Shown piece by piece: positions 3,853 through 44,308 of a stretch of DNA of 49,981 nucleotides (its first letter is position 1; the number at the start of each line of letters is the position of its first letter). Under the pieces are notes generated by a model. The model did no database searches, was not told the origin of the DNA, and worked only from the letters and a program-made list of their open reading frames with translations. Both the position numbers and the translations under genes were made by a program. Source of the stretch: a virus; the IMG/VR virus record IMGVR_UViG_3300010160_000065, positions 1 through 49,981 of that record; one strand, given 5' to 3'.

Positions 3853-3876
3853 TTGTCTGCCAGAAAAGACAAGGAG
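3853..3876 (+). promoter_or_regulatory. RNA hairpin abutting the polymerase ribosome site (candidate gp43 operator)
   Basis: TTGTCT (3853-3858) pairs perfectly with AGACAA (3867-3872), leaving an 8-base loop GCCAGAAA. The 3' arm merges with the AGGAG Shine-Dalgarno (3872-3876), and ATG follows at 3883. T4 and RB69 gp43 repress their own translation by binding an mRNA hairpin with an 8-base loop at this position. The loop sequence differs from T4. The upstream TATAAATG at 3832-3839 is only a weak promoter candidate. Confidence 0.6.
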
Positions 3877-3882
3877 AAAAAT

Positions 3883-6552
3883 ATGAGTTATGTTGATGCG
3901 ATCTGGGATCGCGAAAAAGATATCGTTCGTGTGGTTGAACGAGATTCAAAAAAGGGCAGGACCTATTACGACTATCCTGCCAAGTATTTGTTTTACTATC
4001 CTGATCAAAAAGGAAAATACAAATCAATCTTTGGACAAAATCTTAGCAAAGTCACTGCTAAGAATTGGAAAGAGTTTGCCAAAGAACAAAAAATTCACAG
4101 CAGTCACAAATTATATGAAAGTGACATCAACCCTGTGTTTAGATGCTTAGAAGAAAATTATCTAGGCAAAGAACCCCCAAAACTTAATGTAGCCTTTTTC
4201 GATATTGAGGTGGACTTCGATCCAGAACGTGGATATGCAAGTCCGGATGATGCGTTCATGCCAATTACTGCTATTGCAATTCATTTGCAGTGGTTAGATA
4301 CACTGTTATGCTTGGCTGTTCCGCCTAAAACATTGACCATGGAACAGGCCACTGATCAGGTCAAAGAATTTCCCAATACTATTCTGTTTGAAACTGAGCA
4401 CGAAATGCTAGATGCGTTTCTTGATCTTATACAAGATGCAGATGTACTAAGTGGTTGGAATTCAGAGGGCTTTGATATTCCATATACTGTTAATCGTGTT
4501 ATTAAAGTATTGAGCAAAGAAGATACTCGCAGATTCTGTTTGTGGGATCAACTGCCCAAGAAAAGAGAATATGAAAAATACGGCAAGGCCGCTGTTACTT
4601 ACGATCTTATTGGTAGGGTACACCTTGACAGTCTTGAACTTTACAGGAAATACACTTATGAAGAAAGACACACCTATAGATTGGATGCAATCGGGGAAAT
4701 GGAAGTTGGAGAAAGTAAAACAGTCTACGAAGGAACTTTGGACCAACTCTACAACAATGACTTCCGAAAGTTTATCGAATACAACAGACAAGACTGTGCG
4801 CTCCTTGACAAGCTCGACAAGAAGCTCAAGTTCTTGGATCTAGCCAACACTATCGCCCATGAGAATACTGTATTGTTACAGACCACTATGGGCGCCGTGG
4901 CAGTTACAGAACAGGCTATCGTTAATGAAGCCCACCATCGAGGATTAATAGTTCCCAGTCGACCTAAGCGTGACGACGATATTAGCAATCAGGCCGCGGG
5001 TGCTTATGTTGCATATCCTAAAAAAGGACTACACGAATGGATTGGGTCAATGGACATTAACAGTCTTTATCCTTCTGTGATTAGAGCATTAAACATGGGA
5101 CCGGAGACTATCGTTGGACAATTACGTCAAGATTACACCAAAACTGAGATCGAAGAAAAGATTGCCAAAGGATCTAGTTTTGCGGCGGCATGGGAAGGTA
5201 AATTTGGTAGCAATGAATACGAACTGGTAATGTCACAAGATCGAGCCCATGAAATTATCATCGACTGGGAAAACGGTGAAACTGACATCATGAGTGGTGC
5301 TCAAATTTATGAGATGATTTACGAAAGTAACCGTCCGTGGATGTTGAGTGCAAATGGAACAATCTTTACACACGATGTAGAGGGTGTTATTCCTGGACTG
5401 TTAAAACGTTGGTATGCTGAACGTAAAGAGATGCAGGCCAAATTAAAAGATGCAATTAAAGCGGAGAATAAAATTGAAGAAGAATACTGGGACAAACGAC
5501 AGCTCGTCAAAAAAATTAATCTTAATAGCCTTTACGGTGCTATTCTCAACGCTGGGTGTCGTTTCTTTGATAATCGTATCGGGCAGTCAACCACCCTTAC
5601 AGGCCGAGCAATTGCCCGCCATATGGCCTCAAAAATAAATGAAGTCGTAACAGGCGAATATGATCATTTAGGCAAGAGCATTATTTACGGTGACACAGAC
5701 TCTGCATATTTCAGTGCGTATAACAGCCTAAAAAATGAAATTAACAAAGGTCAGATCCCATGGGACAAAGATACAGTGGTTAAATTGTATGACACTGTGG
5801 CGGCCGAGGTTAATGGTACATTCCCTCAGTTTATGTTAGATGCATTCCACTGCCCTAAATCACGTGGAGAAGTTATTAAAGCAGGACGTGAGATTGTGGC
5901 TATCAAAGGTTTGTTTATTACTAAGAAACGTTATGCCGTGTTATACTACGACAAAGAAGGTAAACGTAGCGACATCGAAGGCAAGCCGGGCAAGATTAAA
6001 GCCATGGGCTTGGATTTGAAACGCAGTGATACTCCAGAATTTATGCAGAAATTCTTAGAAGAAGTTCTCACTAAAGTTCTTAATGGAAGTCGGGAAGCAG
6101 AAATTCTTGACATGATTACGGAGTTTAGAACAGAATTCAAAGCTAGGCCAGGATGGGAAAAAGGTAGTCCAAAACGTGCCAACAACATCACAGACTATCA
6201 GGCCAAGGAAGCCAAAGCCGGTAAGGCCAATATGCCAGGGCATGTACGTGCCAGCATCAACTGGAATACATTGCGTAGAATGAATGGTGACAAATATTCT
6301 ATGCAAATTGTAGACGGGATGAAGGTAATTGTATGTAAAGTTAAATCTAATCCATTAGGTTATACATCAATTGCTTACCCTGTAGACGAACTGAGGTTGC
6401 CTAAGTGGTTCCAAGAATTGCCATTTGACCATGCAGAGATGGAAATGACTATTATTAATAATAAATTGGAAAACCTTATAGGAGTTCTAGAGTGGGATTT
6501 AGATTCGACCACTCAGACCAACACCTTCAATAATTTATTCACCTTTGAATAA
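3883..6552 (+). CDS. 43: T4-type family B DNA polymerase (gp43)
   Basis: The replicative DNA polymerase with 3'-5' proofreading, 889 residues (T4 gp43 is 898). Exonuclease motifs: FFDIEV (D107, E109), GWNSEGFDIPY, and YNRQDCALLDK. Polymerase motifs: A, SMDINSLYPSVIRAL; B, KKINLNSLYGAILNAG; C, YGDTDSAYF with D604 and D606. The C-terminus ends NTFNNLFTFE; in T4/RB69 the last residues of gp43 dock on the sliding clamp, and RB69 ends in a similar FDMFDF-type tail. ATG 3883 has a perfect AGGAG six bases upstream, whereas the in-frame start at 3853 lies within the leader hairpin. The clamp gene follows. Confidence 0.97.
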   Translation: MSYVDAIWDREKDIVRVVERDSKKGRTYYDYPAKYLFYYPDQKGKYKSIFGQNLSKVTAKNWKEFAKEQKIHSSHKLYESDINPVFRCLEENYLGKEPPKLNVAFFDIEVDFDPERGYASPDDAFMPITAIAIHLQWLDTLLCLAVPPKTLTMEQATDQVKEFPNTILFETEHEMLDAFLDLIQDADVLSGWNSEGFDIPYTVNRVIKVLSKEDTRRFCLWDQLPKKREYEKYGKAAVTYDLIGRVHLDSLELYRKYTYEERHTYRLDAIGEMEVGESKTVYEGTLDQLYNNDFRKFIEYNRQDCALLDKLDKKLKFLDLANTIAHENTVLLQTTMGAVAVTEQAIVNEAHHRGLIVPSRPKRDDDISNQAAGAYVAYPKKGLHEWIGSMDINSLYPSVIRALNMGPETIVGQLRQDYTKTEIEEKIAKGSSFAAAWEGKFGSNEYELVMSQDRAHEIIIDWENGETDIMSGAQIYEMIYESNRPWMLSANGTIFTHDVEGVIPGLLKRWYAERKEMQAKLKDAIKAENKIEEEYWDKRQLVKKINLNSLYGAILNAGCRFFDNRIGQSTTLTGRAIARHMASKINEVVTGEYDHLGKSIIYGDTDSAYFSAYNSLKNEINKGQIPWDKDTVVKLYDTVAAEVNGTFPQFMLDAFHCPKSRGEVIKAGREIVAIKGLFITKKRYAVLYYDKEGKRSDIEGKPGKIKAMGLDLKRSDTPEFMQKFLEEVLTKVLNGSREAEILDMITEFRTEFKARPGWEKGSPKRANNITDYQAKEAKAGKANMPGHVRASINWNTLRRMNGDKYSMQIVDGMKVIVCKVKSNPLGYTSIAYPVDELRLPKWFQELPFDHAEMEMTIINNKLENLIGVLEWDLDSTTQTNTFNNLFTFE

Positions 6553-6560
6553 AATATTTG

Positions 6561-6589
6561 TTGACTTATCTCAAAAATCTAAATAAAAT
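6561..6589 (+). promoter_or_regulatory. Sigma70-type promoter for clamp operon
   Basis: TTGACT (6561-6566), a 17-base spacer and TAAAAT (6584-6589), placed in the 55-base gap between the polymerase and clamp genes. The Shine-Dalgarno AAAGGAAA follows (6596-6603) before ATG 6608. Confidence 0.75.
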
Positions 6590-6607
6590 TAACAAAAGGA
6601 AATTCAC

Positions 6608-7345
6608 ATGAAAGATATTTTACAAGACATCGTTGCACATACCAACAAACTAGGATTCTTAAACATTGTTAAGATCACTGGTACCGAGAAACAAACACTG
6701 ATCGATTCTATGGCTGATGATCGAACAGTGATCATGTATGCGGAAACAACAAATCCACATCCGGATATGATCGGTACATTTGGCATGCCGCAATTAGAAA
6801 AACTACGCTATTTGCTAGACGGCAAAGAATACCAAGAAGATTCAAAGATCGAAGTAGTCACTGCCGATCGAAACGGGGAGACTATTCCAGTTGGACTACA
6901 TTTTGAAAACAAAGACGGTGACTTTAAAAACGACTACCGTTTTATGAATCAGTCAATCATTGAAGAAAAACTTAAAACTGTTAAATTCCGTGGGGCTAAA
7001 TGGGACGTAGAAATTACACCAACTGTCAGCGGCATTCAACGTTTTCAATTCCAAGCAGGTGCTAATACAGAGCACACAACATTTTTGGTAAAAACAGACG
7101 GCGATAAATTAAAATTTATTTTCGGTGATGCGGCTAGCCATGGTGGAGAATTTATATTTGCACAAGGTATCACAGGCAAACTTACCAAAGCATGGACATG
7201 GCCAGTAATGCCAGTGTTGAGTATTTTGAAAATTGCCGATAGTAATAATGCCAAGATTAGTTTTTCAAATGATCAAGGCGCAATGCAGATTGAATTAGAC
7301 AGCGGTATTGCTACTTACAAATATATTATTCCTGCACAGGCATGA
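6608..7345 (+). CDS. 45: DNA polymerase sliding clamp (gp45-like)
   Basis: A 245-residue protein, close to T4 gp45 (228), which forms a trimeric ring that tethers the polymerase and, in T4, activates late transcription. The evidence is the repeating beta-alpha-beta layout of clamp domains, position directly after gp43, and features typical of marine T4-like clamps: an N-terminal helix (MKDILQDIVAHTNKLGF), strands such as TVIMYAETTN and NAKISFSND, and a C-terminal strand TYKYIIPAQA. Sequence similarity to T4 itself is low, so the call depends partly on synteny. It has its own promoter and shares ATGA with the next gene. Confidence 0.82.
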   Translation: MKDILQDIVAHTNKLGFLNIVKITGTEKQTLIDSMADDRTVIMYAETTNPHPDMIGTFGMPQLEKLRYLLDGKEYQEDSKIEVVTADRNGETIPVGLHFENKDGDFKNDYRFMNQSIIEEKLKTVKFRGAKWDVEITPTVSGIQRFQFQAGANTEHTTFLVKTDGDKLKFIFGDAASHGGEFIFAQGITGKLTKAWTWPVMPVLSILKIADSNNAKISFSNDQGAMQIELDSGIATYKYIIPAQA

Positions 7346-7716
7346 TAAAAGGTATAAATCAGGGTGGAAAATATATTACTGTAACCGGCGGAATGCCGGG
7401 CAGTAATTATGTTAACAACTACTCTGGAGCCCAGGGCATAGGCAATATGCGATTCAATACTTCTAACCAAAATGTAGAAGTATGGGACGGAAATAATTGG
7501 ATGACTTTACAAAGTTCCTATGCTACTGTACAATTAGATGACGAAGCAATTCGTATTTTAGATTGGGCCAAGAAAGAGATGATGAAAGAAATAGAAATTA
7601 AAAGTCTTGCCAAAGATCATACTGCTATTTCCGCCGCCCAAGAAAACCTAAGACGAGCAAAAGAACAACTAGACATAACAATTATATTGAGTAAAGATGA
7701 ACAGACCACCAGTTAA
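7342..7716 (+). CDS. Hypothetical protein, beta domain plus coiled coil
   Basis: A 124-residue protein. Residues ~1-55 are beta-rich and glycine-rich, with GNMRFNTSNQNVEVWDGNNW; this WDG-type motif resembles the GDLWWDTTNNQLKLW modules in the tail fibres encoded at 24263-29157. Residues ~65-120 are a charged helix or coiled coil (EAIRILDWAKKEMMKEIEIK, AAQENLRRAKEQLD). It overlaps the clamp gene by 4 bases (ATGA) and the dpdA-like gene by 20. Function is unknown. The fibre-like motif in a replication operon is odd; it may be a small domain shared between virion and non-virion proteins. Confidence 0.65.
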   Translation: MIKGINQGGKYITVTGGMPGSNYVNNYSGAQGIGNMRFNTSNQNVEVWDGNNWMTLQSSYATVQLDDEAIRILDWAKKEMMKEIEIKSLAKDHTAISAAQENLRRAKEQLDITIILSKDEQTTS

Positions 7717-9247
7717 CCTAACCCCATTACAGAAAGACTATGCTGTCTATTTGCCAGCTATTAGCAGTTTCTACAGTACCTATGTTGCTAAACAACGCCT
7801 AGAAGAATTTGTACCTAATGATCGTATTCCGGCAGGATTTGATCGCGGCATCGAAGGCATGAATTTCCTTAATCCAGAACAAGGATATTTTACTTACAAG
7901 TACGGCCTGTATTCTGCAGGTCATGCACAGTTAGATCTACAAAAGAGTCTTGTGCAAGAATCTATGATACAACAGCGTGATCGTAACAACACAATGATAT
8001 TAGGCGACTCTGGTGGATACCAGATCGGTAAGGGCGTTTTAAAGTTTGACTGGTTAAACTTCGAAGGTGCAGAAGCCAACAAGACTCGTCAAAAAATTCT
8101 TGAGTGGTTAGAAGTCACTGCTGACTGGTCAATGATGCTGGACGTTCCTACTTGGGCATGCGATCATATCCATAGTCCGAAAACTGGATTAAAAACATTT
8201 GAAGATTGTTTAGATAAGACAAAATTTAATAACAAGTATTTCTTAGATAATCGCTTAGGACAAACTAAGTGGCTTAACGTGCTTCAAGGTGGCGATTGGG
8301 ACACTGCTGAAAAGTGGTATCAAGGTGTTAAAGAATTTAGTGACCCAACAGGTCCATATGCTGGCAAAGAAGCTGAAGGGTGGGCCTTCGGTGGTGCTAA
8401 CATGTGTAAAATGGATATCACGTTAAAGCGTCTAATGACCTTGCGTGAAGATGGTTTGCTGAAGGGCAAAAACTGGATCCACTTCTTGGGTACAGCGCAA
8501 CTTGACTGGAGTTGTTACTTAACTTTGATTCAACGACAAATTAGGAAACATATTAATGAAGAGCTTACCATATCTTTTGACTGCGCCTCACCGTTTATCG
8601 CCACAGCACACGGACTTGTCTACACCAATGCAGTCCACACCCCCAAAAGGTGGAGTGTTATTATGGACAAAGCCCCAGATAACAAAGCACTTGCCGGAAG
8701 CGACATACCTTTCCCGTTTGAAAGCGAAATTGGCCGCAGGCTCACAATAGGCGATATCTGTCACTATGCTCCAGGCATGTTGAACAAGATCAAGAAGGAA
8801 GGCAAGACGTCTTGGGATTCATTTGCCTATGCTCTAATGATGGGTCATAATGTCTACTGCCATATTGTTGCTGTACAACGTGCTCAACAATTAATGGATA
8901 TTGAGATTGCCAAAACTAAGGATAAAATTAATTGGGGTGCGTGGAAAAAGGTTAAAACTCAAGATATGAGCGACGAATACAGTGATTGGGTTCCCCGCAA
9001 CATTCTATATTTTAACCAATTGATCGAAGACCTGTTTAATACAAAAACCAAAGCAGAAGCATTTGCTATGATTGAACAAGCTGGACCTTTCCTACGCAGT
9101 TTGGAAGGCGCTCGCTTACAAGGCGGTCCTGCTCAAAATACATTCAATAGCCTATTTGATATCGAAACAGTTACCAGAGCTGACGAGATCGATCTTGCCA
9201 ATCCAGATGACGACATGTTGCGTAGTTTGGAAGAAAATATCTCTTGA
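7697..9247 (+). CDS. dpdA: TGT-fold DNA transglycosylase (DpdA-like)
   Basis: A 516-residue member of the tRNA-guanine transglycosylase superfamily, most likely the phage DpdA type that swaps guanine in DNA for a 7-deazaguanine. Visible TGT landmarks: GDSGGYQIG with D104-S105-G106-G107-Y108-Q109 (the D(S/T)GGFQ substrate-binding motif), VLQGGD at ~196-200, GWAFGGANMC at ~228-237 (the GGL loop of TGTs), and HFLGTAQ...SFDCASPF, where D295 aligns with the catalytic aspartate nucleophile. It is longer than bacterial TGT (about 375), with a C-terminal extension carrying NTFNSLF at residues 481-487, nearly identical to the polymerase C-terminus. It lies in the polymerase-clamp gene run. A tRNA-modifying role cannot be excluded. 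Confidence 0.8.
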   Translation: MNRPPVNLTPLQKDYAVYLPAISSFYSTYVAKQRLEEFVPNDRIPAGFDRGIEGMNFLNPEQGYFTYKYGLYSAGHAQLDLQKSLVQESMIQQRDRNNTMILGDSGGYQIGKGVLKFDWLNFEGAEANKTRQKILEWLEVTADWSMMLDVPTWACDHIHSPKTGLKTFEDCLDKTKFNNKYFLDNRLGQTKWLNVLQGGDWDTAEKWYQGVKEFSDPTGPYAGKEAEGWAFGGANMCKMDITLKRLMTLREDGLLKGKNWIHFLGTAQLDWSCYLTLIQRQIRKHINEELTISFDCASPFIATAHGLVYTNAVHTPKRWSVIMDKAPDNKALAGSDIPFPFESEIGRRLTIGDICHYAPGMLNKIKKEGKTSWDSFAYALMMGHNVYCHIVAVQRAQQLMDIEIAKTKDKINWGAWKKVKTQDMSDEYSDWVPRNILYFNQLIEDLFNTKTKAEAFAMIEQAGPFLRSLEGARLQGGPAQNTFNSLFDIETVTRADEIDLANPDDDMLRSLEENIS

Positions 9248-11743: not shown

Positions 11744-13771
11744 ATGAAACTCAAAATTTTGGTGACCAGTATTGCACTAATGGTCGGAAATTCTCATGCA
11801 CAAAATGTATCTACTGCAATTTGGGAAACTTCCGAATATTATAAAAGTGGTAATCACAAAATTATTAATTCTAGTACAGCATGGAGCCGCGGATACACAG
11901 GAAAAGGCAGTACCATAGCAATCCTCGATTCCGGACTTGATCCCAGTAACATAGAATTTTCAAATAGGATTAAACTTTCAAAAGATTTTACAAGTAGCGG
12001 AACCATCAATGATAGTGTAGGTCACGGTACTCATGTGGCAGGCATTGCGGCCGCGGCACGTAATAGTATTGGTGTTGAGGGTGTGGCATTTGATGCAGGC
12101 CTACTTATTGGCAAAATTACCACTAATGGAATTGTACTTTCTAACACAGCTCTTTCAGGTGTCCAATGGGCCAGTGCAAATGGCGCCGATGTAGCAAATC
12201 TTTCTTCAAATTTTACCTTATCTCAAGCTAGCCTACAGGCTAAATTAATTGCCCCAGGTGTATATAGTACATCCTTTACAAATTCAGGAGTAACAACAGG
12301 CGGATTAAATGCCCAGCAATGGGCTAACGCCATGCCTGGTAACATGGTGTTGGTAGTGGCCGCAGGCAACGACAGCACAGCATGGTCTGGCGGCCTCGGG
12401 CAATTGGCCACTGCTACAGACAGCAAAGGCAACCTAATACTAGGCGGGCGTGTTATCATTGCAGGTAACTGGAACGGTGTTAACAATTTAGGTCCGGGCA
12501 GTAACGGTGCGGCTACTCTTTGTCAAGTTGTTGCTAATAACATCTGCCAAGACAAATATCAAACTTGGCAATTTTATCTATTAGCACCGGGCACAGGAAT
12601 TACCTCCACAGTGCCGACTACCTACAATAAAACGGGTGTGGCCACAATGACTGGTACCTCAATGTCGGCACCGGCAATTAGCGGATCAGTGGCTATTATT
12701 CATCAGATGTGGCCACAAATGACTGGTGCTAACATTGCACAATTATTGTTTCAAACCGCCAATAAAAATATTCCTAACTACAACAAATATGTAGACGGGC
12801 AAGGGCTTCTTGATCTTGACAAAGCTACCCAGCCAGTTGGAACACTCGGTATACCCACAACCGGAAGACTAAGCGGTGCTGTTGTTACTGCCGCACAGCC
12901 ATTGCTGATAACCAATGGTAGCGCCAGTACCGGTAAAATTAGTAATATTGTGGTACTCGACGACTTCCAACGAGATTTTTATATCAAGAGCAAAAGTTTA
13001 ACCGCAGTTTCACAGTCCTCTCGAGAATTTAATGTAATGCAGGCAATGATGCCATATGCTACTAAAAATAATTATAGTCAATTTAACAATTACAATACAC
13101 ATGCCGGAACCAAGATTGATAACATTGATTTCCACATGTATGTAGACAACAGCCCCGAAGCAAAAAACATAACTCCTCTTATGATGGAGATCGGATATAC
13201 TGCAAAATTTGAGTGGGCAGACATTCGAATTAGTGGAGGCGCATTTGCCGAAAAGGCCACTTGGTTAGGCAATGCAGTAAATGGGTTCGAAGGCGGCGGC
13301 GACAACTCAGCTAGTGTAACTCAATTTTTAGGGCTAGGGGTAGAAAAATCCTTTGCGGATGATTACAAAGTTCATGCCAATATTAGCCATGGAGTAACCA
13401 ATACCAAAGCTCATAGTGCCAACATTAATAATATTGGCCCGATACTGAGTTATTCCTGGTCTGCAGGAGTAGAAAAGAAACTATCTAAAAATGACAGTAT
13501 TGGAGTTATGATGTACCAACCGGTCAGTGTTTATTCTGCAAAGGCAAACATTACAGCACCTGTTGGATTAGACAACGATTTTAATATTGTTCAAAATAGT
13601 ACTGCTAATTTGGCCGCAGATGTCCTCGAACGTCGAACTGGTGTCTACTATAAAATCGATGACCGTAAAACTACCAAGGTAATGACCTTTATCGAATATC
13701 GAAATAACTACAAAGGTCAAGAGGGTGTTACAGATAAAGTTGTCGGATTGTCAATTAACAAACTATTTTAA
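11744..13771 (+). CDS. Secreted subtilisin-like (S8) protease with autotransporter-like C-terminus
   Basis: A 675-residue protein. An N-terminal signal peptide is clear (MKLKILVTSIALMVGNSHAQ, likely cut after SHA). The peptidase S8 domain spans ~45-360 with a complete triad: D62 (AILDSG), H94 (GHGTHVAG) and S306 (GTSMSAP), plus oxyanion-hole N209 (AAGND). Residues ~460-675 are amphipathic beta strands (FEWADIRISGGAF, ILSYSWSAGVEKKLS, TGVYYKID, MTFIEYRNNY) ending VVGLSINKLF with a terminal Phe, as in outer-membrane autotransporter barrels. The product is predicted to reach the host cell surface. The ribosome site AAAGG precedes ATG 11744, 9 bases after the glycosyltransferase stop. A bacterial origin is likely; all catalytic residues are intact. 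Confidence 0.85.
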   Translation: MKLKILVTSIALMVGNSHAQNVSTAIWETSEYYKSGNHKIINSSTAWSRGYTGKGSTIAILDSGLDPSNIEFSNRIKLSKDFTSSGTINDSVGHGTHVAGIAAAARNSIGVEGVAFDAGLLIGKITTNGIVLSNTALSGVQWASANGADVANLSSNFTLSQASLQAKLIAPGVYSTSFTNSGVTTGGLNAQQWANAMPGNMVLVVAAGNDSTAWSGGLGQLATATDSKGNLILGGRVIIAGNWNGVNNLGPGSNGAATLCQVVANNICQDKYQTWQFYLLAPGTGITSTVPTTYNKTGVATMTGTSMSAPAISGSVAIIHQMWPQMTGANIAQLLFQTANKNIPNYNKYVDGQGLLDLDKATQPVGTLGIPTTGRLSGAVVTAAQPLLITNGSASTGKISNIVVLDDFQRDFYIKSKSLTAVSQSSREFNVMQAMMPYATKNNYSQFNNYNTHAGTKIDNIDFHMYVDNSPEAKNITPLMMEIGYTAKFEWADIRISGGAFAEKATWLGNAVNGFEGGGDNSASVTQFLGLGVEKSFADDYKVHANISHGVTNTKAHSANINNIGPILSYSWSAGVEKKLSKNDSIGVMMYQPVSVYSAKANITAPVGLDNDFNIVQNSTANLAADVLERRTGVYYKIDDRKTTKVMTFIEYRNNYKGQEGVTDKVVGLSINKLF

Positions 13772-16049: not shown

Positions 16050-16910
16050 ATGAGCAAAATAAAAATAGCAGAATTATTTTACAGCATACAAGGTGAAGGA
16101 CGCTACATGGGGGTACCCAGCGTGTTTTTACGCACCTTCGGTTGTAATTTTACCTGTCAAGGCTTTGGCATGCCAAGAGGCACGTTTAGTATAGAAGCCG
16201 CACATATTGCTAGGAACCCTGAACAATTTAAAAAATATGAGGAACTACCGCTAGTATCAACTGGTTGTGACAGTTATGCTAGTTGGCATCCTGCTTTCAA
16301 AGATCTAAGTCCGTTGCTGACTACAGATGCTATTGTAGAACGTATTATGGAAATGCTTCCGCATAATGAATGGCGAGACGAACATCTTGTGATTACAGGA
16401 GGTGAACCGTTATTAGGTTGGCAACGTCAATACCCCGACTTGCTATCACATCCCAAGATGCGTGGGTTAAAAGAAATTACATTCGAAACTAATGGTACGA
16501 TGAGATTGACTAAAGGTTTTAAAGATTTCTTAACAGCATGGCAACAGCCCGCATTGGGTTGTGCCAAAGATCATGAAATTACATTCAGTATCAGTGCTAA
16601 ACTTCCATGTAGTGGCGAGCCTTGGGCTGATGCCATTAAGCCCGAAGTAGTCTGCGATTACGAAAATTATGGTACTGCATATTTGAAATTTGTCATTGCC
16701 ACAGAACAAGACTTTGAAGATGCCCACCGTGCAACTAAAGAATATCGTGCGGCAGGATTCAAAGGGCATGTTTATTTGATGCCGGTAGGCGGCGTGGAAA
16801 GTGTTTACGCACTGAATAATAAGGCAGTGGCTATCATGGCAATGAACGCAGGTTTACGTTATAGTGATAGGCTACAGGTGCCGTTGTTTAAAAATGAATG
16901 GGGTACTTGA
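16050..16910 (+). CDS. queE: QueE, 7-carboxy-7-deazaguanine synthase
   Basis: A 286-residue radical SAM enzyme that converts 6-carboxy-tetrahydropterin to 7-carboxy-7-deazaguanine (CDG). Family landmarks: the N-terminal FYSIQGEGRYMGVPSVFLRT (QueE substrate-binding signature), LVITGGEPLL (GGEP) and EITFETNGT. The cluster cysteines are unusual: C32-x3-C36 is followed by a 36-residue insertion before C73 (TGCDSYASW, matching the CDTxYxW end of the standard motif). The last third carries the barrel (AYLKFVIA, VYLMPVGG). With the DpdA-like and QueD-like genes it forms a deazaguanine pathway. It has its own promoter and an AAAGGAA site. Confidence 0.92.
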   Translation: MSKIKIAELFYSIQGEGRYMGVPSVFLRTFGCNFTCQGFGMPRGTFSIEAAHIARNPEQFKKYEELPLVSTGCDSYASWHPAFKDLSPLLTTDAIVERIMEMLPHNEWRDEHLVITGGEPLLGWQRQYPDLLSHPKMRGLKEITFETNGTMRLTKGFKDFLTAWQQPALGCAKDHEITFSISAKLPCSGEPWADAIKPEVVCDYENYGTAYLKFVIATEQDFEDAHRATKEYRAAGFKGHVYLMPVGGVESVYALNNKAVAIMAMNAGLRYSDRLQVPLFKNEWGT

Positions 16911-30682: not shown

Positions 30683-33600
30683 TTAAAATCCTTGTAGTGT
30701 GTTTCCTTGATCGTCTGTTACAGCAAATCCGCTGTCGTCAAACAATGCAGGATCACCTCCATAATAATACTTGTCAGGTAATTCAGCAGGACGAGCTTGT
30801 AAGAATCTTGCAGGAACTGTAGTACTGTCCATTAGAGATTTAGTTGATTCTCCCGGCACTATCACATCATTCCAAACATCATAACCGGCAAACTGACGTT
30901 TAACCATTGTTAATCTTACTCCTGGCTGTACCCCTTCCGGAATATTTAACGAAATTTCTTGCTTAAATTCATTAGCCACTACTGAAAATTCTGGAGGGCG
31001 ATACATTAACCCTCGATACTCATAACCGTTAACTGCATTTAGCTTATTAGATTGCGTATAGACCCAGACCTGATTGGTTAGTGTGGTTACATATGCGGTG
31101 CCAATAATTGTTGTGTACGGTAATGTTTCAGTAGATGTAGTAAAATTAACAGTATTAATGATAGGACTATCATAAGAAATATTAATATCTTGATGATACG
31201 TTCCTAATTTATTCAGCAATCTACCTCCATAATATACAGATATTTGATCAGCAGAGTTTATGTAACTAGCCGTAGACAATATTATACCATTGTTGTTAAA
31301 TGATCCGGTGTTTACAGAATCTGTATAGAATTTAGATATATGATTATTTTTATAAACAGTATAGGCGGTACTGATGCCTGTTAAGGTATTTTGCACTAGA
31401 ATGCTTTCATCAAACGGCACTGTTTGCTCAATGCTTTGATCGATAACTTTTGTATTTTCTTGGCTATAAAAACTTGGCGCTGTTCCTAATGTACTTCTTC
31501 TTAACTGCGCTAAGACATGATCTGTACTGTAAGTTTTTCTGATAAAGGTTACTTCAGTTCCTGTAGTCAAAGCTATCGACGCAGTATTGTTCAAGGTTAC
31601 CCTGTTTGATACTGTAGAAATAACTGTAGTCTCTAAAGGTATTCCCTGTATTGTTACAAAATCTCCCGGATTAATCAAATAGTTAGTGCCGGTATCAATA
31701 GCGAGTACGTTTTCTCCAAATCTTGTTAGACCAATAATTGTTGTTGCGGTTACTAATGTTTGAGTTTCTACAGGTCTAGTTTCTGTTTTAAAGAATTCAA
31801 TTCTTTCGCCGTCAATTATTACAACCCCAGGAATATTTGCTTCCACTGAAGGTCTAGCAAGCACTGTCAAGTCTGCTACAAAAATTTCTGTATCAGTAAA
31901 AGTTAACGGTTTTGTTAAGTAGGTAGTATTCTGTTTACTCAATCGTTTGAAGTGAGTCCTATTAAACAGATCATTGAATATTCTGTGTCCCAGTATAGTC
32001 GATGATAATTTTTCACTGCTGAATGTTATGATAACAACTTTGTCAACGGGTTTGAAATTAAACCAATCGCTTACCTGTACAGTGACCTGATCTTCTAATA
32101 TTTCAAAGTCAACAAAATTGACCAGAGGTATACCATTAACTGTGATCCAGATATAATTTTCATCCAATACAGGTCTACTAATTTTATATCGTCGACTTGG
32201 GTTACCGTTGAACACTTCTGTCCTGATCAACATGTCGTCTTGATTATTATAGGTAATAACTTTTATTTCACCAGACCAGTTGGTATTCCAACCGTAATAA
32301 CCAAAATTAGTAACAGGAGCACATAATAATAAATTTGATCCCACAATATCATAATGATAATCTTGTTCAGGAAAATCAGCAGTACTTCCTGGTTTTCCTA
32401 GTATTGCAATTACATCTCCCCTACTTAACAGCGCCGAGTTAATAGTAACTTGATAAACTCCGTCAAGAAGTCCTACAGTAAAATCAAATCCTCGTTTTAA
32501 TTCAGACCCGTTAATATATGTTCTAACTCTGGCTAGATCAAAATTTTTCAATGCGCCAGTGCTGGTCACATTGTTAATTGCATAAGAATTATCTGCTGGA
32601 TCTTCTACCTTATAATAATCTATATGAGGCGGTGTCAGCATGCTTCGTCCGCCTGTGGAAGTATTATAAAATTCAACTATTGCATTGGCCACAAATGGTT
32701 CAACTTCCCCCGGAGGGTTCTCTAAAGCATAAGGAATCTCAGTGTATGTACCTACAGGAGCACGAGCATCTACATTGATTATTTGCTCATGGATTTCATT
32801 AAAGTACTTGTGCCCAAACCCAAAGAACCAAGCTGTTACCACATTAGGACCTGTGGCGGTTGACAGATTATAAACATTAGCAACCGCTCTGCGATTGTCG
32901 TCATCGGCATAGGTTAGTATGTAACCGTATTCAGTTGAGGTACTTACCGCAGGAATACTTTGTCCGTTGACTGTGACATATGCTGATCGAACTGAGTCAA
33001 TGCCAGCTAAACTTTGTACCTGTGCAGAACTAGTCGGAGGTATAATTGTAGCAGAATCAATAACTCCTGCTTCGGTATCTGGGCGGCCGCCACCGATGCT
33101 GATCACTGTGTATCTCACTAATCCAGAACTGCCTTGAGGTGGTATTATTAATTCATTTGTAGTCCAGTTAATTGCATATTGAGTACTGGTTGTAAAATTA
33201 GTATTTGTATTATATGAAAAAATTGTATTGGCATAACTGACCATTACACTGGCATAACTAGGAGGAACAATACTCATTATGCGAGTAGCAGTAGAGTTAG
33301 AATCTATAAAGAATGAAGATGATAAAACTACCGGTGCACCCTCTGGATTTTTTGTATAAACATTAATGCCTAGGCTTTCGGCTACGTGCCCGGGAACTAG
33401 CTCCTCAGGAGCATAGCTGTTGTCTGAACTAATAAATCTATCTCCATCTATAATAACATCTTCGGGATTTATTCCAAGGGCACCGTTTGCAACTCCAGCG
33501 TTCCATGTGCCGCCAATGATGGCACTATCTAGCAAGGCCGAATTAACGCTATAACTCCAGAATTCAATAGTAGAAGTGTTGGGTATTGTTTTAACCGTAG

Positions 33601-36600
33601 TAGTGTTAACTGTAATCACCTTGGTTATCGGATTGATACCTACCACTTTAGCAATAGATGATCTGAAGATAGGTGTAGATGTACTGATCACATTTACTGA
33701 CTGCCCTACAGTAATTCCACTAATGTCAGATACCGCAATGTTTGTCCAAGTACCGCCGACTACAGAAGACGACGCAGTTGTTACGGCACTGAAATATGTT
33801 CCAACTTCGTCGGCCCATAGGGCTCTATCAAAGCCTAGATAAGTATCCCATTTTGTACTATAATCAAATGTTAGCCCTTGGATTGATGCCTGGGGGTAAA
33901 CAATACCTGTCATTAACTGCCCTAAATCTAATCCTGGCATCCCCGATTTAGGTGTGTAATAGTTTAAAATTCTATCAACAGAGTTCAATACATCTGTACT
34001 CTTAATATAGGATATTTCAAGTGTCTGACCATTTAGCGGCACATAATTTAAAAATATTATTTTATTTTTATGCTGTAAATATTCTTGAGAATCGGTAGAA
34101 TATTCAGTATAGTACTTTATTGTATAATCTGAATTCAACACTAACTCACCGTCTAATGTTGCTACTATTTTATTTTTATCCGGATCTGCAACCCAAGATA
34201 AAATAAATTCATTAGTCGATCCATCGCAAACGAATGCGTCTATCGTGTTAAGATTACCTGTTTCGGACTGTCGACTTGTCCTATCAAATCTAATTCCAAT
34301 AGTATTTTCTCGAACTTTACCATTTGATAATTTAGCATAGGCCACTGCATTAATTAAACCAGTAGATCCTCCGCCTTGAATAACAACTCTTGGAGACCTA
34401 CTGTAATTTTGTCCTGGGTTAGTTACGATAATATCGTAAACTTCACCTGATCGAATGTACGCTTCGGCAGTGGCCCCGGAGCCAGTATCTCCAGGCTCTG
34501 TAATTAGATCAACCTTCGGAGGGAATGTGTATCCTGCCCCCGGGTTTCCTATAGAAATTTCGCCCACTCCAAACAGATAATTATCAGCCCAGGCCTTCCA
34601 AGGCTGGGTATTCATTAAAGGATTACCAAAATTAACTGTGATAAATTTTTCTAAATTATTATCATAAACTGACGGTAAATCAAAGTCTGTCACATAGGTT
34701 TGACTTGGTTCTAATACCGTGTAGTTAGTTGTAAAATTTCGAATACTGGTATGGTATGGTTTAACTTCGCCGATATAATCTTCATAGAATTGACTATTTT
34801 GAAGTTTATAAATAGGTCGTTGATCCAAATCACCTGCATAATTTATAACATTGATAAATGATGTTTTGAATGCCCAGTCTAAAAGTTTTTGCTCACTTAA
34901 CGCATATTTAACTGCTTTGAAGAACAACAAATTCCAGTTAATTTTTAACGCATTAACAAATAAATCGTCTCTTAATGCAGTCAATAGGTAGTGTAATTCA
35001 ATATCTGGTATTTGGTCAAACAAAGTTTGGTCAAATGCACTGTTGTTATCATATGATAAATTACTATTTGAAAAATTCCAAATGTTATCTAGTATTTTTA
35101 TTGTGCCGTTTTCTGCATAGACAATATTGAAATTACTATCAAATGTACCATTCACTCCGTCTGATGTTTTTTCAACAATGATATAAGTTCCAAGGCCTGC
35201 ATCGTTAACCTTGACATACGATCCTACTGTTAATTCAGTCAATGTGTCTAGTTCATATACTTCATTAACTGTTGCCGAATAATCTAAAAATTGGTTATAT
35301 GTGTCCGACGACCAATCAATATAGTCCCAATACAATGAGGTGTTGTATTCTTGAGTATGAGCTCTAATCCAGCTATCTGACAATTTGTCATAGATAAATT
35401 TTGTCCATTTGCCCGTAAATGACGTATCAGCTAACACTATTACTGTATAAGGCCTAACTGTTAACCGCGGAGCTGTGGCCAGTCCCTCACCGGCATTTTT
35501 AATTTCAGCGGAAATAACATGTCCTCGAGAATTAATTGTAGTAACTATTTCAGCACCGTTGCCTCCTTCAATAGTCACTACTGGACTAATTTTATAACCT
35601 GCTCCGGTTTTATCAATAGAGACGCTACGGATTTTTCCATCTTTTATTGTGCAAGACAACTCCGCGGCAACTAACTGTCGAGTATCAATTAATAGCAGTG
35701 CTTCGTTATCTTCGACTACTTGATCGTATTCGTGACTATATTCATCTGGTGGAATTTCTTGTTTGTTTAAATTTTCAAAACTATAATTTCCGGTAATTCT
35801 TTCTTTAGATAATACATCGTTAGCAAATTCAACAATATTTCTTAGAGCAGACAGTCTATCTTTAAACATGGTTTGTCTAGGCCTGATACCAACACCATAA
35901 CGAGCCCTAGCAGATAGTGCAGGATCAGGTACAGTATTACCTAGGCTATCATGTCCTAATAAACTGTCCATTAATTTCTTTTCTAATAATGCATTAGGTC
36001 GACTAGTAGCTAATCCGTCTTGCAATAATAACCATTCAGTGTGTCTAGGTATTTCATTACTGATAGTGTCGGACGCAATATTAAGGTGTATTCTATTATC
36101 AACTAATAAATTACCAACATTGGCTAATACTACTGCATCTTTAGCAATTATTGAAGCATATTGTAATCCATAAATTGTAGGATTAGCAATTAGGCTTGAT
36201 ACTTGATAACTATTGATTCTTCTATTTTTTACATTAGGAACAACTAATTTATTTTTTACCCAGAAGTAATAATAATTTGTAAAAGAATCATTTATGCTGT
36301 TATAAAATTGTTTAGCAGACACCACTGAGTTATCAGGGTGTTTAGGTTGCCCGCTAATTCCTAAGGCAAGGCCTTCTGTGGTGTCGGCAAATGCCGCCCA
36401 TTGACTCGGTAAGTATGTAGATCCTACCCATTCGTATACATCAATACTTGACCCTGGGAATAATCTTCCCCAGTTATTTTTTCTATACTCTAAGCTACCT
36501 TGTTCATACCATGAATATTTTACTGTGCTTAAATCCCACCATAGGTCTCCTACATGTTCTTCCATCCAACATGTATTAGGATCATTTACTGTAGCATCCG

Positions 36601-39600
36601 TACCGATGGCATAAATTGCAGGATCAAAAGATGATTTGTATCGTATTTCTTGTTCTGCAAGACCTGAAATTTTTCCCTTTAACGGATCAATTACATCAAG
36701 GTATTCAACTATTTCCTCATTGAAGGTATCAATTAACGATACCTTTTGAATAGCGTTTACAGATATTAAATTGTCCTGCTCTCTTAATAAATTTAAACTT
36801 TGTGCCGTGGTATCTTTTTTGTAAAACTGATAGAATGAACTGGTTGCCAAGTCTGGTGTGACAGAGTTTTTATAAGCCGGAGATCCAACATAGATACTAT
36901 TTTGATTCAATGCAATACTAAACCCAAAGTTAGTTCCCGTAGTTGTATCCGGAGGAATTAGTTCGTCGGCTAATCTAAACAGATTATTTTTTCTGTTATA
37001 TACATATGCCGTTCCCGAATATGTGATGGCATCAAAAAACGTTGTAGATTCAAGGTCAAATGTTGTCTGGGCATCTGATTGAGTACTATTAGGATCATTT
37101 ACATATTGTGCTGTAAGATCAGGTTGTGTTCCTAGCAACAAAGAATATTTGTCAAAGGTTTCAGAAACATGTCGATTGGTACCAATTGCTGATGCTACTA
37201 TTTCAGTAGCATCAGGGTTAATATCAACAGCCTGGCCAAACTTCATTCCTACACCGATTACAGGATTAGATATAATTTGTAATAGAGTAAATGTACCAAC
37301 TGAACTGGTTCTTTTATAAATTGCAACCTTACCATAAGATTGATCAGAATTTCGAGCTTCGGATGCAGTTACGCACATGTAATTGCCGGTAGGACTAACA
37401 GCAATATCTGTACCAAATTTAGCATACTTGTCAAATGGACTATAAATTGTTTGTAAAAATTGAGTAGTTGTTCCTACAAAAACTGTAACTAAACCTTTGT
37501 TGGAATCATACCCAGGGGCACTAATTGCAATTATTTCTGCATTGTCAGATCCGGTAATTATACTACCCCATTGACTGCCAGTGTTTGCCAAAGTAATTAC
37601 TGGATTAATAACCTTGCCTTTATAAGAGATGTCAACGGTTCCTGTAGTGACTGTGCTGGTAGTGACCCAGTAAGAATAAACAGTTCCTGTCCCAAGAGAA
37701 TTAGTTTGGGGAGCACCTACCAATAGAAGCTTACCTAATGAAGTAGCAACTTCATAAATGCTAGTTCCAAATCGTTCGTAATTAGATGGGTACGGGCTTA
37801 ATAAAACTTTTTGTGTTTTTTCTTCTATTAAAGTTCCGTCAACGCTACTAATTTTAACCAGACCTTCCTGTGTCCTCGATGATGCACTACCGGTACCCGA
37901 TGCATATCTTAATGATCCAACTGCATCATTAGATTTAACTTTACCTGTAAGAGGGGCTCCTACAAACATCAATCCGTAGCCTGTTGGCCCATTACTGTCA
38001 ATAAATTCTTGGCTATCGTAGGCCAAATCCCATCCAAATCCAGTTTCATCACCTAAAGAATAATACTGTGTGATTCCTGTGTTAATTCCGTACCTGAACT
38101 TTAATTGTATAGAATTTCCAGATTCGTAATAAACAGATACGTTACCAGTGTTTACATTTTCTGTATACCCCGGACTACCTACCATGAATATATTAGTCGG
38201 ACTTGATCTACTGATACTCCATCCTAACTTTTGATCAGTCGGTGATGTGCTAGCAGAAACTGATAATTCGTGATAGTTTTTTATTTTTTGATAAACACTC
38301 CATTTATTATTGCCGTTATCATCGACCCACAACTTTGATCCTTCGGGCAATTCTAAAAGTGTTTGATCTGATGGTAAATTATCAAAAGTACTATTTCTAG
38401 CACTGACGAATTTAAATAATAGTCCCGGAGAAGACGGAGTAATAGTACCTGCAACCACCGTAGAAGAATTTACAACAATGAAACGATTCAATCCAGGAAC
38501 TGATTGAATTTTATATACACCATTAACTCTATCGTCAAACTCATTTACAGATACAACGTCCCCTACAGACAAATTGTGTATGTAATCAGTGTAAAACTCA
38601 ATTGTTCCTGCAACTTCGGTATCTGAAGTCATACTAACTAACTTAGCAGTGTCGAGATTATATTTTAAAACATCCCAATCTCCGTTGTTTTTAGAACCTA
38701 CCCAAATAGTTGTTCCTTGTACAAGTAAATTAGTATTGGTTAACGTTAATATTTCAGATTCGTTAAACAGTGTAAAATCTACATCGTCAAATCTTGCATA
38801 TCCAGCAGTGGCTAATTGGAAAGAATCTGTTCCGGTTTCGGTAGTAAAAGTAGCAGTTGATTTATATTCTATAGGAGTAATAGATAAATCTGCAGGCAAA
38901 CTATAATAAATTAAATCGTTTGGTGTTGTAGGTGTTGTCTCAACAAAATTAATGACTTGAGGATTTTCAATGAACCCGCCTTCAACTAACGGTACTTCAA
39001 TTTCTTTATAGGTTTCGTAAGATCCATAGTATCCAACTCGGAACGCCCACTCTTCGTTGTAATCAATTTGTCCTTGAAGATTGTGGATTGTTGCTTTAGA
39101 AAGTTTACTAATTGCATTCTTAGTTCCCTTTTCTTTGATAAAACCTTGATAGAATTTATATTGAGCAATAGGATCTGTAAAAATATTGTTTAAGTAAACT
39201 CGAGGTGTATAGCCTGTTAGATGCTGTGCCATTTTTTGTTGGGCACTGTCAAAATTATCAATATCTAAACTGTAAAAATCTTCAAACTGACTAATTTTAT
39301 AATCAAAATTTGACAACAATGCGGCTACAGGTTTTTCGCCTAGAGGAACCCATTTTGTAAAATCAAATTTTTCTGAAGAGGCAACATTTTGTTTAGCAGA
39401 ATAATAATTTCCGTTGAAACGAACAACATCACCATATCGATAATTAGTGTATGTCTTCCAATCTGTTACTGTTGCTTCGTCATATATAAAACCCGGACTG
39501 AAATAATCGCCATCCCAGTTTGCAGTTCTAAAACCTTTTACTTTCATCCTATGTTGGCGATATCCTGTGACTTTATCATAGATAACATCATTAAACATAG

Positions 39601-42600
39601 TTCTATTTTTGAATACTAGACCGTGTTCTTTTTGTACAGAATTTAATCTAGCAAAATATATACCGTCAAAAGAATTTAATGTTTTGATTGTACATACTCC
39701 GTCTTCACGGTCGACTGACAAAGATGTTTTAGGAAACGGACGGCCATTGGCCTGTAATATACTATATTCGTAAAAACTATTAAAAATATTATCAACTACA
39801 GATGCAGGATTTTTAAATTTAATCTGATTAGCAAAAGGACTTAATGTAATGATATTTTGAGAAGCCCAGTTTTGTGTAGTCCAATATAAAAATTCTTTAC
39901 ATGTAAAGTCCCAATCAATAGCTGACTGAAGCTCACTGTTATATTCATCAAAATAGAACCCTTGCCCTTTGAGCCAGGCACCGTATCCTATTAATAAATC
40001 ATAGACTTCTTGAATTGTATTAAACTCTGTTCCGTAGGGAATATTTTTTTCTATACTGTCAATTGTACTTGCAATTTGCACAGTGGCCCCGCCAATTATC
40101 GGCAATGCAGGTAACCTTTGGAAATAAGACTCAACAAAAGTATCACCACTTCTGTGGCTATTTTTAACCCTATAATAATAATTTCCGTATTTTACTATCT
40201 GCCCTTGCTGATAATAAGTGCCTGATAATGCAGAATTTGCAGTAGTCGTATCAACTGACGATAACCCACTTTGCCCGATCGATGAACTCGATGCCCATGT
40301 AATGTAAGGATCTGAAACTCCGCCTACTGTAATCGTCGGAGTGTCGGTATTTCTTAAAACAGTATAGACTGTAAAGTAAGGATTATTATTATCATATCCT
40401 TTAACAATGAATTTGCCATTATTTTTTTGTACAATTACTCCAGAAATTGCAGTAGATTTAATAGGGTTACTAACATTTAAAATTAAACTATAATCTTCCG
40501 GAGGAAGCAATGCTCCCTGACTAGTGCTGGTAGGCTCAATAGAATCAATAGTAATTTGTAATTTGTTTTTATTAACAAATCCGCCAGCTTTATAAAATAA
40601 ATTAAAATCTGCATTATCAAGATCGGATCTTAGCTCTTTAATATAATTGCCGGTACGCTGAAGGCCAATTTCACTAACATATACACTATAACCGCTGTTG
40701 GTTATAGTATCAGTCTCTCCGTGGATGCTTACATTTTTTAATTTTAAAAATTCAAAATTTGGCTCGTAGTCCCACTGCCCGGAAAGGTTTCGTCTAGTCT
40801 TAATCGGGTCATACATCAGCGACGCATAGGAAGCAGGACTTGTTAATGCCAATAGTTTTTGGATGACAAATGGCCAATAACTGCTTCGGCGCCATGCGGT
40901 TTCGGCCGCACCATGATCTCCAAATTTCCAAGGCTGGCGGCGGTTATAAGCAGTTACATTTGTGGCTATTAATTGGGTCGGATCTACTAATCTTCCTTGG
41001 TCGTCAACTGGTAATACTTTAGATAAGCCAGGTCTTGCATATTCAACATGCACTCCTGCACGGTATCCTTGTCTTACTAATCCTTGTTCTAGATCTCTCC
41101 ATAACAACTCGTTTCCAGAAGTGTAAGGTGCAGGACCATATTGTCTAGCCCACCAGGTTGGATACTCTGTAAAACCCAGCATTTCCCACGGAGTATAATT
41201 AGGAGAGTCAGTATCGTAGAAATAATTAAATATCGATCTCCAACTTCCCGATAACTCAATGCCAAATTCTCTGTTATAACTTCCTGCGTAATTCCAAGTA
41301 AATGGATCATATTGATCAAATGCTGTATTTTCCTGATAGTCAATGCCGTAGGTTCCTGACCATTTAATAAAATCTCTTTGAATTATTTCATTTACTTCTT
41401 TAACAGAATAATCAGATTTACGGAATGCTCCAGGTAATGCACCCATGAACTCGAATACATTTGAGTTATAAGGAAATTTAATATTGTTATATACTCTCTT
41501 TTCAAATTCAAGAATGATATCATCTCTATAATCGTTATAAGCCGCCATGATACTGCCATCATGACATTTGATGGATTTGCGAAGGCCGTTTACATACGAT
41601 CCATCATCATAGATGTATGGTCGGCTTTTTGGATAAAGTCCTAATTTTGTAGGTGTCGGCGGAATAAAAGATCCGCGAGTATCGCGGTAGTCTTCGACTA
41701 CTAAAATATCGCCTTTATTACGAGTTACCAATAACTGAACAGCAGAATTTGTCGGCGAATAATCGTACTGTGCTCCATGTATTAATTGTACTCCGTTTAA
41801 GTATACCAAGACAGATCTATATGTATACCTTGAAATACCCGTAGCATCAAATGCTGAAGTAATAGGATAAGAAGAAATATTGGGATTAGTAATAGTCCAA
41901 GTTCTAGTATTTTTATCTGATCCATAGGCTATCATATCAGATAGATAGTAAGGTGATTGAACGTCCTTATCAACGTTTAATTCTTTAAGTGCTATATCAA
42001 CTGCGGTTACAGGATCAGTTTGTAACCCAATGCTGGCGATCTTTTTTAAGAAAGCCATTCTAAATTGATTATATTGATCAGCCGCAATTGTTATCGCATC
42101 AATGGCATTGTGTTCTTTTTTACCAAGGAAGAAATGCGCAAACGACATAGGATTTTTATTGGTTATAAACCTATTTCCCTTGGCAGAAATATTACTAAGA
42201 TCTCTTAAATTGCTATCGCCTGGAAAATTGCCAGTAAATTCTGAAGTTTTAACAACCATCGATTTAACATGATCGCTTATTTCGCTAAGTGTAAAACTAT
42301 CAGCATTTTCATTTAGTGGGTTATTGGTCAATCCTAGGGGAGTTTCATAATAATTTGATTCACCAACAGTTGTGGCAATATCAGATTTTAATAACGGAAT
42401 TTTATAAGGATCAGCTATTGACCAAGTATTAAAAAAGTTATCGCCAATCTTAAAAAATGTTGTGCTAGTAGGTATCGTTGTCTCATCTTCGGGCAAAACT
42501 ATTTGACCGTCCATGAAATAATTTTTAAAAAGATAACTACCTACTCCGATACTATTTCGATAGTTTAAAGGAAACCCTAGGATTGGATCTGCAGAGCCCG

Positions 42601-44308
42601 ATCCTATATCATACCCAAACACTTTATTACCAGAAAAACTAGTAACATAGTAATTTAAATCACTAAAACTTGCTCTCCTATAATCGTATAGATCAAATAA
42701 AGGCGCTTGATTTAATGCAGTTTTTTGTTGTGAATATTTCCATTCGTCTCCGTTAAACCACCAACTAGTTCCTGTGTATTTTTTACCATAGTTTACAGCT
42801 ACTACTGATTCCGTTGCAGGGGCATCAACTTGTTCGAGGGTTAATCTTAATCTATTATTGATACCAATATAATTAACTTGATAAATTTTTCCACGGACTT
42901 CGTTGTCAGTATCTGCTACAAATATAACTCTGTGACCTTGCGCTAATTGTACACCGTCAACATGATGTCCAGCAGACCCTTCAACTAAACTAAATGCGTC
43001 GGTTGTTTCTGTGTCAATTAAATCAACATTTTCTATGCCTCGAGACCCAAAGTTAAATAATTTAAAATCAGCTTCAAATTCAATAATAGGGCGTTTAGCT
43101 CTTAGGTTGGCAGGATATACAGGAGTTTGACCTGTGGCCAGAGCAGATGCGGTAATAACGTCTTTATGCACCCATCGATTATATCTTGACCAAGGGTTTA
43201 AATCCCTACTTGCTCGATTGATCGTAATGTAATCAGGTGTTAATGGTAACTTCTTAAAACTATCAAATGGATAGTCATCAAAAGGAGTAGCGTCAAAATT
43301 TTCATTAAAAGTTGCTGTGGGAAGTTCAGCACAGTTTAATAAATCATATTCGACTAACCTAATGGCAATACCTACACCTTCAACAAAAAAGTCTCGATTT
43401 CTATAAAATTCGGGATATACATCTCCGCCAAATCTAATCTTCATACCATTTGACAGGACCACATTGTTTCCGGAAGTATAATGTTTTTTACCTATAATAT
43501 CTGTTTCAACATTTATTTGAGAATCTTCTGCAACTGCTTTGACAGAAATTTGCCCTTGTGCATATTGTTGAGTATCACTGACGTAGAATAAAGTATCTGG
43601 AGTATTGTTATCGATTGTAACAGAAATTATTCCGGTACTGGTTCCATTATTAGTAACTCCAAAATTAAATTGATCTCCAGTACCCAGGGTGGCAGAAGTT
43701 TTAATGTAAAATTTAAAAGAAGAGTCAACTTTGAAGTGATAGGTGTTTCCTCTGTAAAGAGAAATTAACGGATTAGCAGTTAGTCCATCGGGGGTAAACA
43801 CAAACGCAGTTTTTGCGCTGTTGTTTACAACAGTATATGTACTGGTACTATTTTTTGGAGATCCGTCAATTGTTATAACATTTGGACCGGTAACCAACCA
43901 ATAGTATTGCTGATAGTTGATTAATTTATCCCAGTCAATATGAGGATTATAAGAATAAAACTCGGGCCTAAACAATCTGTCAAAGTTATCAACTTTACTA
44001 CCTTGTATAGACAGCTCGTTGACTAAATCATCTAATGCCACAACATCAGTTACATTATCAGAAGAATCTCTAATTACCAGGGCAGGATCTAATTGATAAT
44101 TTCTTCTCAAAGGCAGTGTTTCAGAAATATAGATATCTGCTGTAGAATTGTAGGTAACAGTTTCGGTGTCACCTATATATCCATCGAGACGTTCAACTTG
44201 CGGTTTCTGTATTAACTGATCAATTGTGCTGGATAGAAATTTAGAATTTCTATCTGTTCTTAGAAACTCCGGAAGTAGATTTACTGATTTAATAATTTTA
44301 TCTGCCAT
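30683..44308 (-). CDS. Giant baseplate/tail structural protein in gp7 position (4541 aa)
   Basis: A single 13.6-kb open frame. The N-terminal ~160 residues ([54 protein letters not shown]) look like the baseplate-wedge proteins of marine T4-like phages, and gp6 lies directly upstream, where T4 has gp7. Around residues 2030-2490 there are FG-GAP-like propeller repeats ([46 protein letters not shown]). Residues ~2900-2955 and ~3255-3330 hold two GAGY...P.V.I repeats. One GDLWWD motif matches the fibre proteins. T4 gp7 is only about 1030 residues, so this may combine wedge, cell-contact and fibre functions. No stop or frameshift interrupts it. Confidence 0.85.

Follow-up and report, generated by a model that had tools for sequence, protein, structure and literature searches.

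Why should a putative DNA-modifying enzyme of a phage carry, near its C-terminus, nearly the same peptide with which the replicative DNA polymerase of that phage ends? The question is raised by the virus record IMGVR_UViG_3300010160_000065, taken here at its full length of 49,981 bases ("the window"), which encodes a family B DNA polymerase (PolB), a candidate sliding clamp and a DpdA-like protein with the predicted fold of a tRNA-guanine transglycosylase (TGT). The DpdA-like protein is probably a phage DNA guanine transglycosylase that docks on a PCNA-like clamp via a PolB-type tail peptide and exchanges guanine on newly replicated DNA. What points to this is, on the side of the sequences, the motif itself, its conservation, its covariation and the adjacency of the genes, and, on the side of predicted models, the disorder of the tail and the TGT and PCNA folds. 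The features in question are the following (pLDDT, predicted local distance difference test; asterisks after peptides denote stops).

3853..6552, + strand: PolB; Pfam DNA_pol_B 4.9e-38, exonuclease domain 3.2e-17, PHROG 262 3e-199
6520..6549, + strand: C-terminal peptide NTFNNLFTFE of PolB, proposed clamp-binding motif, from the sequence and the relatives' tails N[TN]F[GN]x[LF]F
6608..7345, + strand: putative sliding clamp with PCNA fold, 245 amino acids (aa), from Foldseek on the read-through model and annotated homologues
7697..9247, + strand: DpdA-like protein, predicted TGT fold, 516 aa, from AlphaFold2 and Foldseek
8006..8008, + strand: Asp104 in DSGGYQ, proposed equivalent of TGT Asp102, invariant in 45/45
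8579..8581, + strand: Asp295 (FDCASPF), proposed to match Asp280, the nucleophile of TGT, invariant in 45/45
9116..9208, + strand: DpdA C-terminal tail (residues 474-504), predicted to be disordered, pLDDT <50 throughout
9137..9166, + strand: DpdA peptide NTFNSLFDIE, residues 481-490, proposed clamp-binding motif, F487 kept in 92/97

A common peptide on two different enzymes

PolB is certainly a family B polymerase, 899 aa long when counted from a TTG start, or 889 aa if translation begins with the ATG at 3883. Its C-terminus reads ...STTQTNTFNNLFTFE*, with NTFNNLFTFE as the last residues, 890-899 in the former numbering and 880-889 in the latter, which is the one used by the initial annotation of this DNA. 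Translation likewise bears out the other half of that observation, namely that NTFNSLFDIE stands at residues 481-490 of the DpdA-like protein within a C-terminal extension, 26 residues short of the C-terminus. Searched with a degenerate DNA pattern for NTFNxLF, the whole window has just two sites, those in PolB and DpdA, and the reversed window, used as a control, has none; among the open reading frames (ORFs) of the 86 sequences scanned first, the motif is also confined to these two proteins. The strict pattern is too narrow for the relatives, most of which carry NTFG or variant letters. A DNA pattern for C-terminal LF-x-W, run on eight records, hits three other sites besides the polymerases of PA5oct and Vibrio phage 2.275 and the Vibrio DpdA.

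Searches of Pfam, PHROG and NCBIfam give no match for the DpdA-like protein, and in tblastn with KVP40 DpdA2 and 9g DpdA no phage of the window's DpdA family is among the matches listed. Sequence profiles of the DpdA and clamp families compared with PDB sequences gave nothing useful, and therefore the folds were obtained by prediction. The AlphaFold2 model of the DpdA-like protein (45-row alignment) has a mean pLDDT of 87.6, with residues 1-473 forming a confident domain; every one of the 50 PDB matches listed by Foldseek is a TGT (E from 5e-7, prob 1.00), with modest TM-scores of 0.32-0.40 by query length and ~0.5 by target. The body of the enzyme is thus predicted to have the TGT fold. Residues D104, Q109, D149 and D295 are invariant in 45/45 sequences and in 35/35 aligned; by motif and not by superposition, we take them to correspond to Asp102, Gln107, Asp156 and Asp280 of the Z. 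mobilis TGT.

The clamp candidate matches nothing in the library searches but one unnamed PHROG, and its homologues elsewhere are annotated as a sliding clamp in Phosso and as PCNA in phage PAC2. Clamp and dpdA share a frame, and they were modelled with the stops read through as a single chain of 879 residues (44 paired rows). The clamp part of this model matches PCNA chains in Foldseek (E ~1e-9, prob 1.00, TMt ~0.65), which is consistent with a clamp fold of two domains.

Modelled in DpdA alone, residues 474-504 have a pLDDT of ~30 and follow directly on the confident TGT fold. Because the tail is predicted to be disordered, the peptide should be exposed and not buried in the DpdA-like fold, burial being one of the outcomes that the initial annotation had named as damaging to its proposal. 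In the read-through model, too, pLDDT stays under 50 over the linker and the greater part of the DpdA tail; the peptide (residues 845-852) rises there to 50-70 and forms a turn of helix (FNSL) followed by a strand (FDI), being unstructured at ~30 in DpdA alone. A helix turn followed by a strand is the shape of PCNA-bound peptides in general, and the model may be read as a weak hint that the DpdA peptide docks on the clamp. The DpdA tail fits a clamp-binding short linear motif in being, by prediction, disordered or exposed, in carrying hydrophobic-x-x-[L/F]-F and in having this in common with the replicative polymerase.

Conservation and covariation of the tails

Relatives were drawn from IMG/VR and phage records and reduced to 97 loci with DpdA identity <90%. 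PolB, clamp and DpdA are encoded in the same order and on one strand in all 97. Within a DpdA tail that drifts freely around the motif, the position of F487 is F in 92 of the 97 proteins, with the lowest entropy of the tail (0.36 bits), so that the peptide is indeed conserved in relatives; the L486 position is L or F in 84/97 and the F483 position F or Y in 77/97. In the 44-row read-through alignment, F487 is the sole invariant column of the C-terminal region. A scoring matrix built from PolB tails alone, with thresholds set at 95% and 99% of shuffles, places 74% of the 97 DpdA C-tails above the former threshold and 64% above the latter, the corresponding values being 0.5% and 0% for windows of the DpdA body and 3.1% and 0.7% for the tails of other ORFs. 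With the matrix favouring DpdA tails so far above both controls, their likeness to PolB tails goes beyond chance.

Moreover, DpdA and polymerase tails co-vary within genomes. In Vibrio phage 2.275, the polymerase ends NNTDLFDW* and DpdA ends NNNDLFGW*, each at the extreme C-terminus. Locus L173 pairs ALQAFFEF* (polymerase) with VLNEFFEF* (DpdA), L174 pairs TMQQFFEF* with VMNEFFEF*, L203 TLSTFFEF* with GFGAFFEE, and L295 FNKFFKF with FKKFFSP. DpdA has FF in 5/6 cases when the polymerase of the same genome has FF, versus 3/86 with an LF polymerase (Fisher p 7e-6, a value that ignores kinship); at a 60% identity cut, L172, L173, L174 and L203 collapse into one representative. The motif is followed by 2 to 39 residues across the relatives and sits at the extreme C-terminus in some lineages, a mobility that would suit a linear motif gained anew. 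A peptide that is kept, shifts in place and tracks the polymerase would therefore be a short linear motif selected for a shared pocket, not a relic.

Candidate motifs are also seen on other proteins of these phages. A Phosso gene annotated as a glycosyltransferase (223052-223924; L338:453-1325) encodes a C-terminus, TQLSDLFDFG*, that resembles that of the Phosso PolB (TTFNDLFTF*), and its product is possibly a second modification enzyme docked on the clamp. Three ORFs near dpdA, unassigned or nuclease-like (L225:11512-12138, L215:10218-10805 and L213:9604-10017), have motif-like tails, NSTFQNLFAYDN, NEFNSLFDVEE and NPNFSKFFEEV, respectively, the last one on an HNH-like protein; they are candidates for further clamp clients. 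A tail matching the polymerase might serve as a sequence signature of such clients among unannotated phage proteins.

The same pattern in other DpdA subfamilies

The DpdA2 subfamily, described from Vibrio phage nt-1 (PMC6884629), is separate from the window's DpdA and occurs in T4-like phages. T4 gp43 ends SLDFLFG*, and the pocket of the gp45 clamp is described as binding motifs of polymerase, ligase, gp33 and gp55. The ends of polymerase and DpdA2 are SSLESLFG* and QSLEELFG* in X1, SSLEDLFGW* and NSLDDLFG* in Moby, PSLDDLFE* and TTLDELFE* in ACP17, and STLDDFFS* and ASLDSFFD* in BUCT-ZZ01. The DpdA2 C-terminus is thus polymerase-like in 4/7 T4-like lineages; such C-termini occur by chance at a rate of 1.2% (1,477 ORFs of five genomes), which gives a probability of ~6e-7 for 4/7 if lineages are treated as independent. 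In KVP40 (polymerase end TLESFFG*), DpdA2 (KVP40.0122, L304:6646-8025) holds an internal insert, DLSAFFGG, that resembles the polymerase end. The DpdA2 of nt-1 (L308:601-1995) is without this insert. Since dPreQ0 has been reported in the DNA of nt-1 all the same (PMC6884629), the tether, if real, would not be essential in that phage.

In the 9g group, dpdA lies near a beta-type clamp gene and, in several phages, directly before it. The seven DpdA1 ends sampled are LQDLFDE*, VQELF*, IQELF*, VMELF*, IQELF*, EQRLF* and QMELF*. The bacterial clamp motif is Q-aliphatic-x-[L/M]-[F/L] (PMC11139829), and the resemblance is suggestive only, because Q falls one place late in most of these ends. The mycobacteriophage DpdAs of Typha and CRB2, the two sampled, have no polymerase-like tail; the initial annotation expected the peptide to be absent from DpdA homologues of phages lacking gp45, and these two agree as far as absence goes, the clamp content of their phages lying outside the comparison. 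On the whole, it is rather likely that phage DNA transglycosylases dock on the sliding clamp as a general rule. A clamp peptide, in the dialect of the respective replisome, would then have been acquired independently by at least three subfamilies of DpdA, namely that of the jumbo phages (PCNA-like clamp), DpdA2 (gp45) and the 9g-group DpdA1 (beta-type clamp).

The window protein resembles phage DpdA and DpdA2 (Hutinet et al. 2019, PMC6884629) in its predicted TGT fold, in a catalytic motif of the DSGG[YFL]Q type and in the 7-deazaguanine genes of its genome, but it is longer (516 aa), has a clamp-type tail and matches no library model. The word "clamp" does not occur in the text of PMC6884629. 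With the clamp motifs of RB69/T4 gp43, ligase, gp33 and gp55 it shares a hydrophobic peptide at the C-terminus or in a tail, although most jumbo-phage copies read N-T-F-x-x-[L/F]-F and those in DpdA usually lie ~30 residues from the end.

Clamp-bound DNA modifiers as such are already known. The T4 alpha-glucosyltransferase binds the gp45 sliding clamp (PMC13216743), but it transfers glucose instead of exchanging a base. A hydrophobic-x-x-[L/F]-F peptide was looked for in this enzyme and none was found; presumably, therefore, it binds the clamp in another mode. Sommer 2004 reportedly also deals with the T4 alpha-glucosyltransferase bound to gp45. In eukaryotes, Dnmt1 ties DNA base modification to replication by a clamp peptide, the PCNA-interacting peptide (PIP) box, but it is an enzyme of maintenance methylation unrelated to DpdA. 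New here would be a transglycosylase bound to the clamp, apparently general across DpdA subfamilies. The initial annotation knew of no clamp-bound DNA transglycosylase, and the literature, subscription papers being mostly outside the search, likewise yielded no DpdA or other TGT reported to bind the clamp.

Proposed docking on the clamp, its rivals and the gene neighbourhood

Clamp binding, DNA as the substrate and coupling to replication are what we infer from these sequences. A clamp loaded on newly copied DNA would offer free pockets or protomers besides the one bound by the polymerase; DpdA would dock on such a protomer through the hydrophobic-x-x-[L/F]-F motif of its disordered tail and swap G for a 7-deazaguanine on the new duplex, the coupling to the replisome confining it to phage DNA. 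The proposal, made when the peptide was first noticed, that both enzymes dock on the clamp gains support from the covariation with the polymerase tail and from the recurrence in DpdA2. That base exchange "follows the replication fork", as was added then, may hold, but a position at the fork would not be required: clamps remaining behind it, above all on lagging-strand segments, would serve equally. Such docking would bear on how guanine can be replaced fast across a growing genome to escape restriction and yet only in part (up to 27% in 9g; PMC6884629). If it is true, modification would be coupled to replication and aimed at DNA bearing the phage's own clamps, phage DNA might gain protection while being copied, and targeting would be addressable by a change of three residues.

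Several points weigh against this reading. About one quarter of DpdA tails fall under the matrix threshold, some of them (L244, L258) without a clear motif, and the Phosso DpdA ends merely IVEGLF*. The DpdA2 proteins of nt-1 (polymerase end TLESFFG*) and pf16 (SLEDFFS*) have no clear copy of the motif. The docking signal of the read-through model is weak (pLDDT 50-70), and its linker is artificial. We know of no measured DNA modification in this phage group, and the base inserted is uncertain because QueC is missing from most genomes of the DpdA family. Finally, the share of modification by the T4 alpha-glucosyltransferase is set mostly by promoter strength and expression signals, not by clamp contact (PMC13216743).

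Sequence data do not fix the identity of the protein bound, and the shared peptide might instead recognise another common partner, such as the clamp loader, the single-stranded DNA-binding protein (SSB) or a host factor, in which case DpdA would still reach the replisome. This is unlikely, given that the C-terminal peptide of T4-like polymerases is a known clamp ligand and DpdA2 ends alike there, and that the clamp gene separates polB from dpdA at all 97 loci and is near dpdA in the 9g group.

It is still less likely that the enzyme modifies tRNA and that its tail serves something else, for instance a dimer contact or stability. The TGT fold and the lack of a DpdA profile match for the family in Pfam, PHROG and NCBIfam would suit such a role, but there is no known use for a polymerase-type clamp peptide on a tRNA enzyme. 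The three-cysteine/one-histidine zinc site that tRNA TGTs have is also missing: the DpdA-like alignment has no trio of conserved cysteines, cysteine reaching a frequency of >=70% only at positions 237, 273, 296 and 355. Besides, dpdA adjoins the polymerase and clamp region, and genes of 7-deazaguanine metabolism (reductase, transporter, QueC, FolE) are found near it in Vibrio phage 2.275.

Least credible of all is common descent or DNA exchange of the polB and dpdA 3' ends, with a tail copied once and functionless in DpdA: the two genes are close enough for local copying, but a recent DNA copy was rejected, since the peptide-coding stretches share just 19/30 bases (7/30 directly upstream), and the motif is conserved inside an otherwise drifting tail, follows the polymerase even where lineages differ in peptide and position, and is also found in T4-like phages, where polB and dpdA2 are kilobases apart.

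As for the base that a clamp-docked DpdA would insert, genomes of the window's DpdA family carry FolE, QueD or QueE-like genes. QueC (PF06508) has a strong match only in Vibrio phage 2.275; it was not found in PA5oct (NC_071039), Phosso (PV764938) or the IMG/VR relatives G003, G006 and G008, where FolE- and QueD-type genes are present, and the PA5oct and Phosso records are complete. These five phages may use 7-carboxy-7-deazaguanine in place of preQ0. Two further features of the window belong to the neighbourhood of the locus or to this metabolism.

7342..7716, + strand: 124-aa ORF of no assigned function in the clamp-dpdA interval, from the ORF list
16050..16910, + strand: QueE-like radical SAM protein (7-deazaguanine synthesis); NCBIfam QueE models 9e-14, under their curated cut-offs

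The initial annotation rightly placed the clamp gene between those of PolB and the DpdA-like protein; it lies directly 3' of PolB, and the 124-aa ORF precedes DpdA. Some relatives have no space for this ORF, and the clamp stop directly precedes dpdA there; in L202, L207, L268, L283, L286 and others, one stop only separates the clamp from the dpdA frame.

Farther away on the + strand, a 675-aa ORF (11744-13771) resembles, by eye only, a subtilisin-type protease that would be secreted and has an autotransporter-like end, which would be unusual company for phage replication genes. On the - strand, a single ORF of 4541 aa (30683-44308) lies upstream of a baseplate-like gene (48273-49829).

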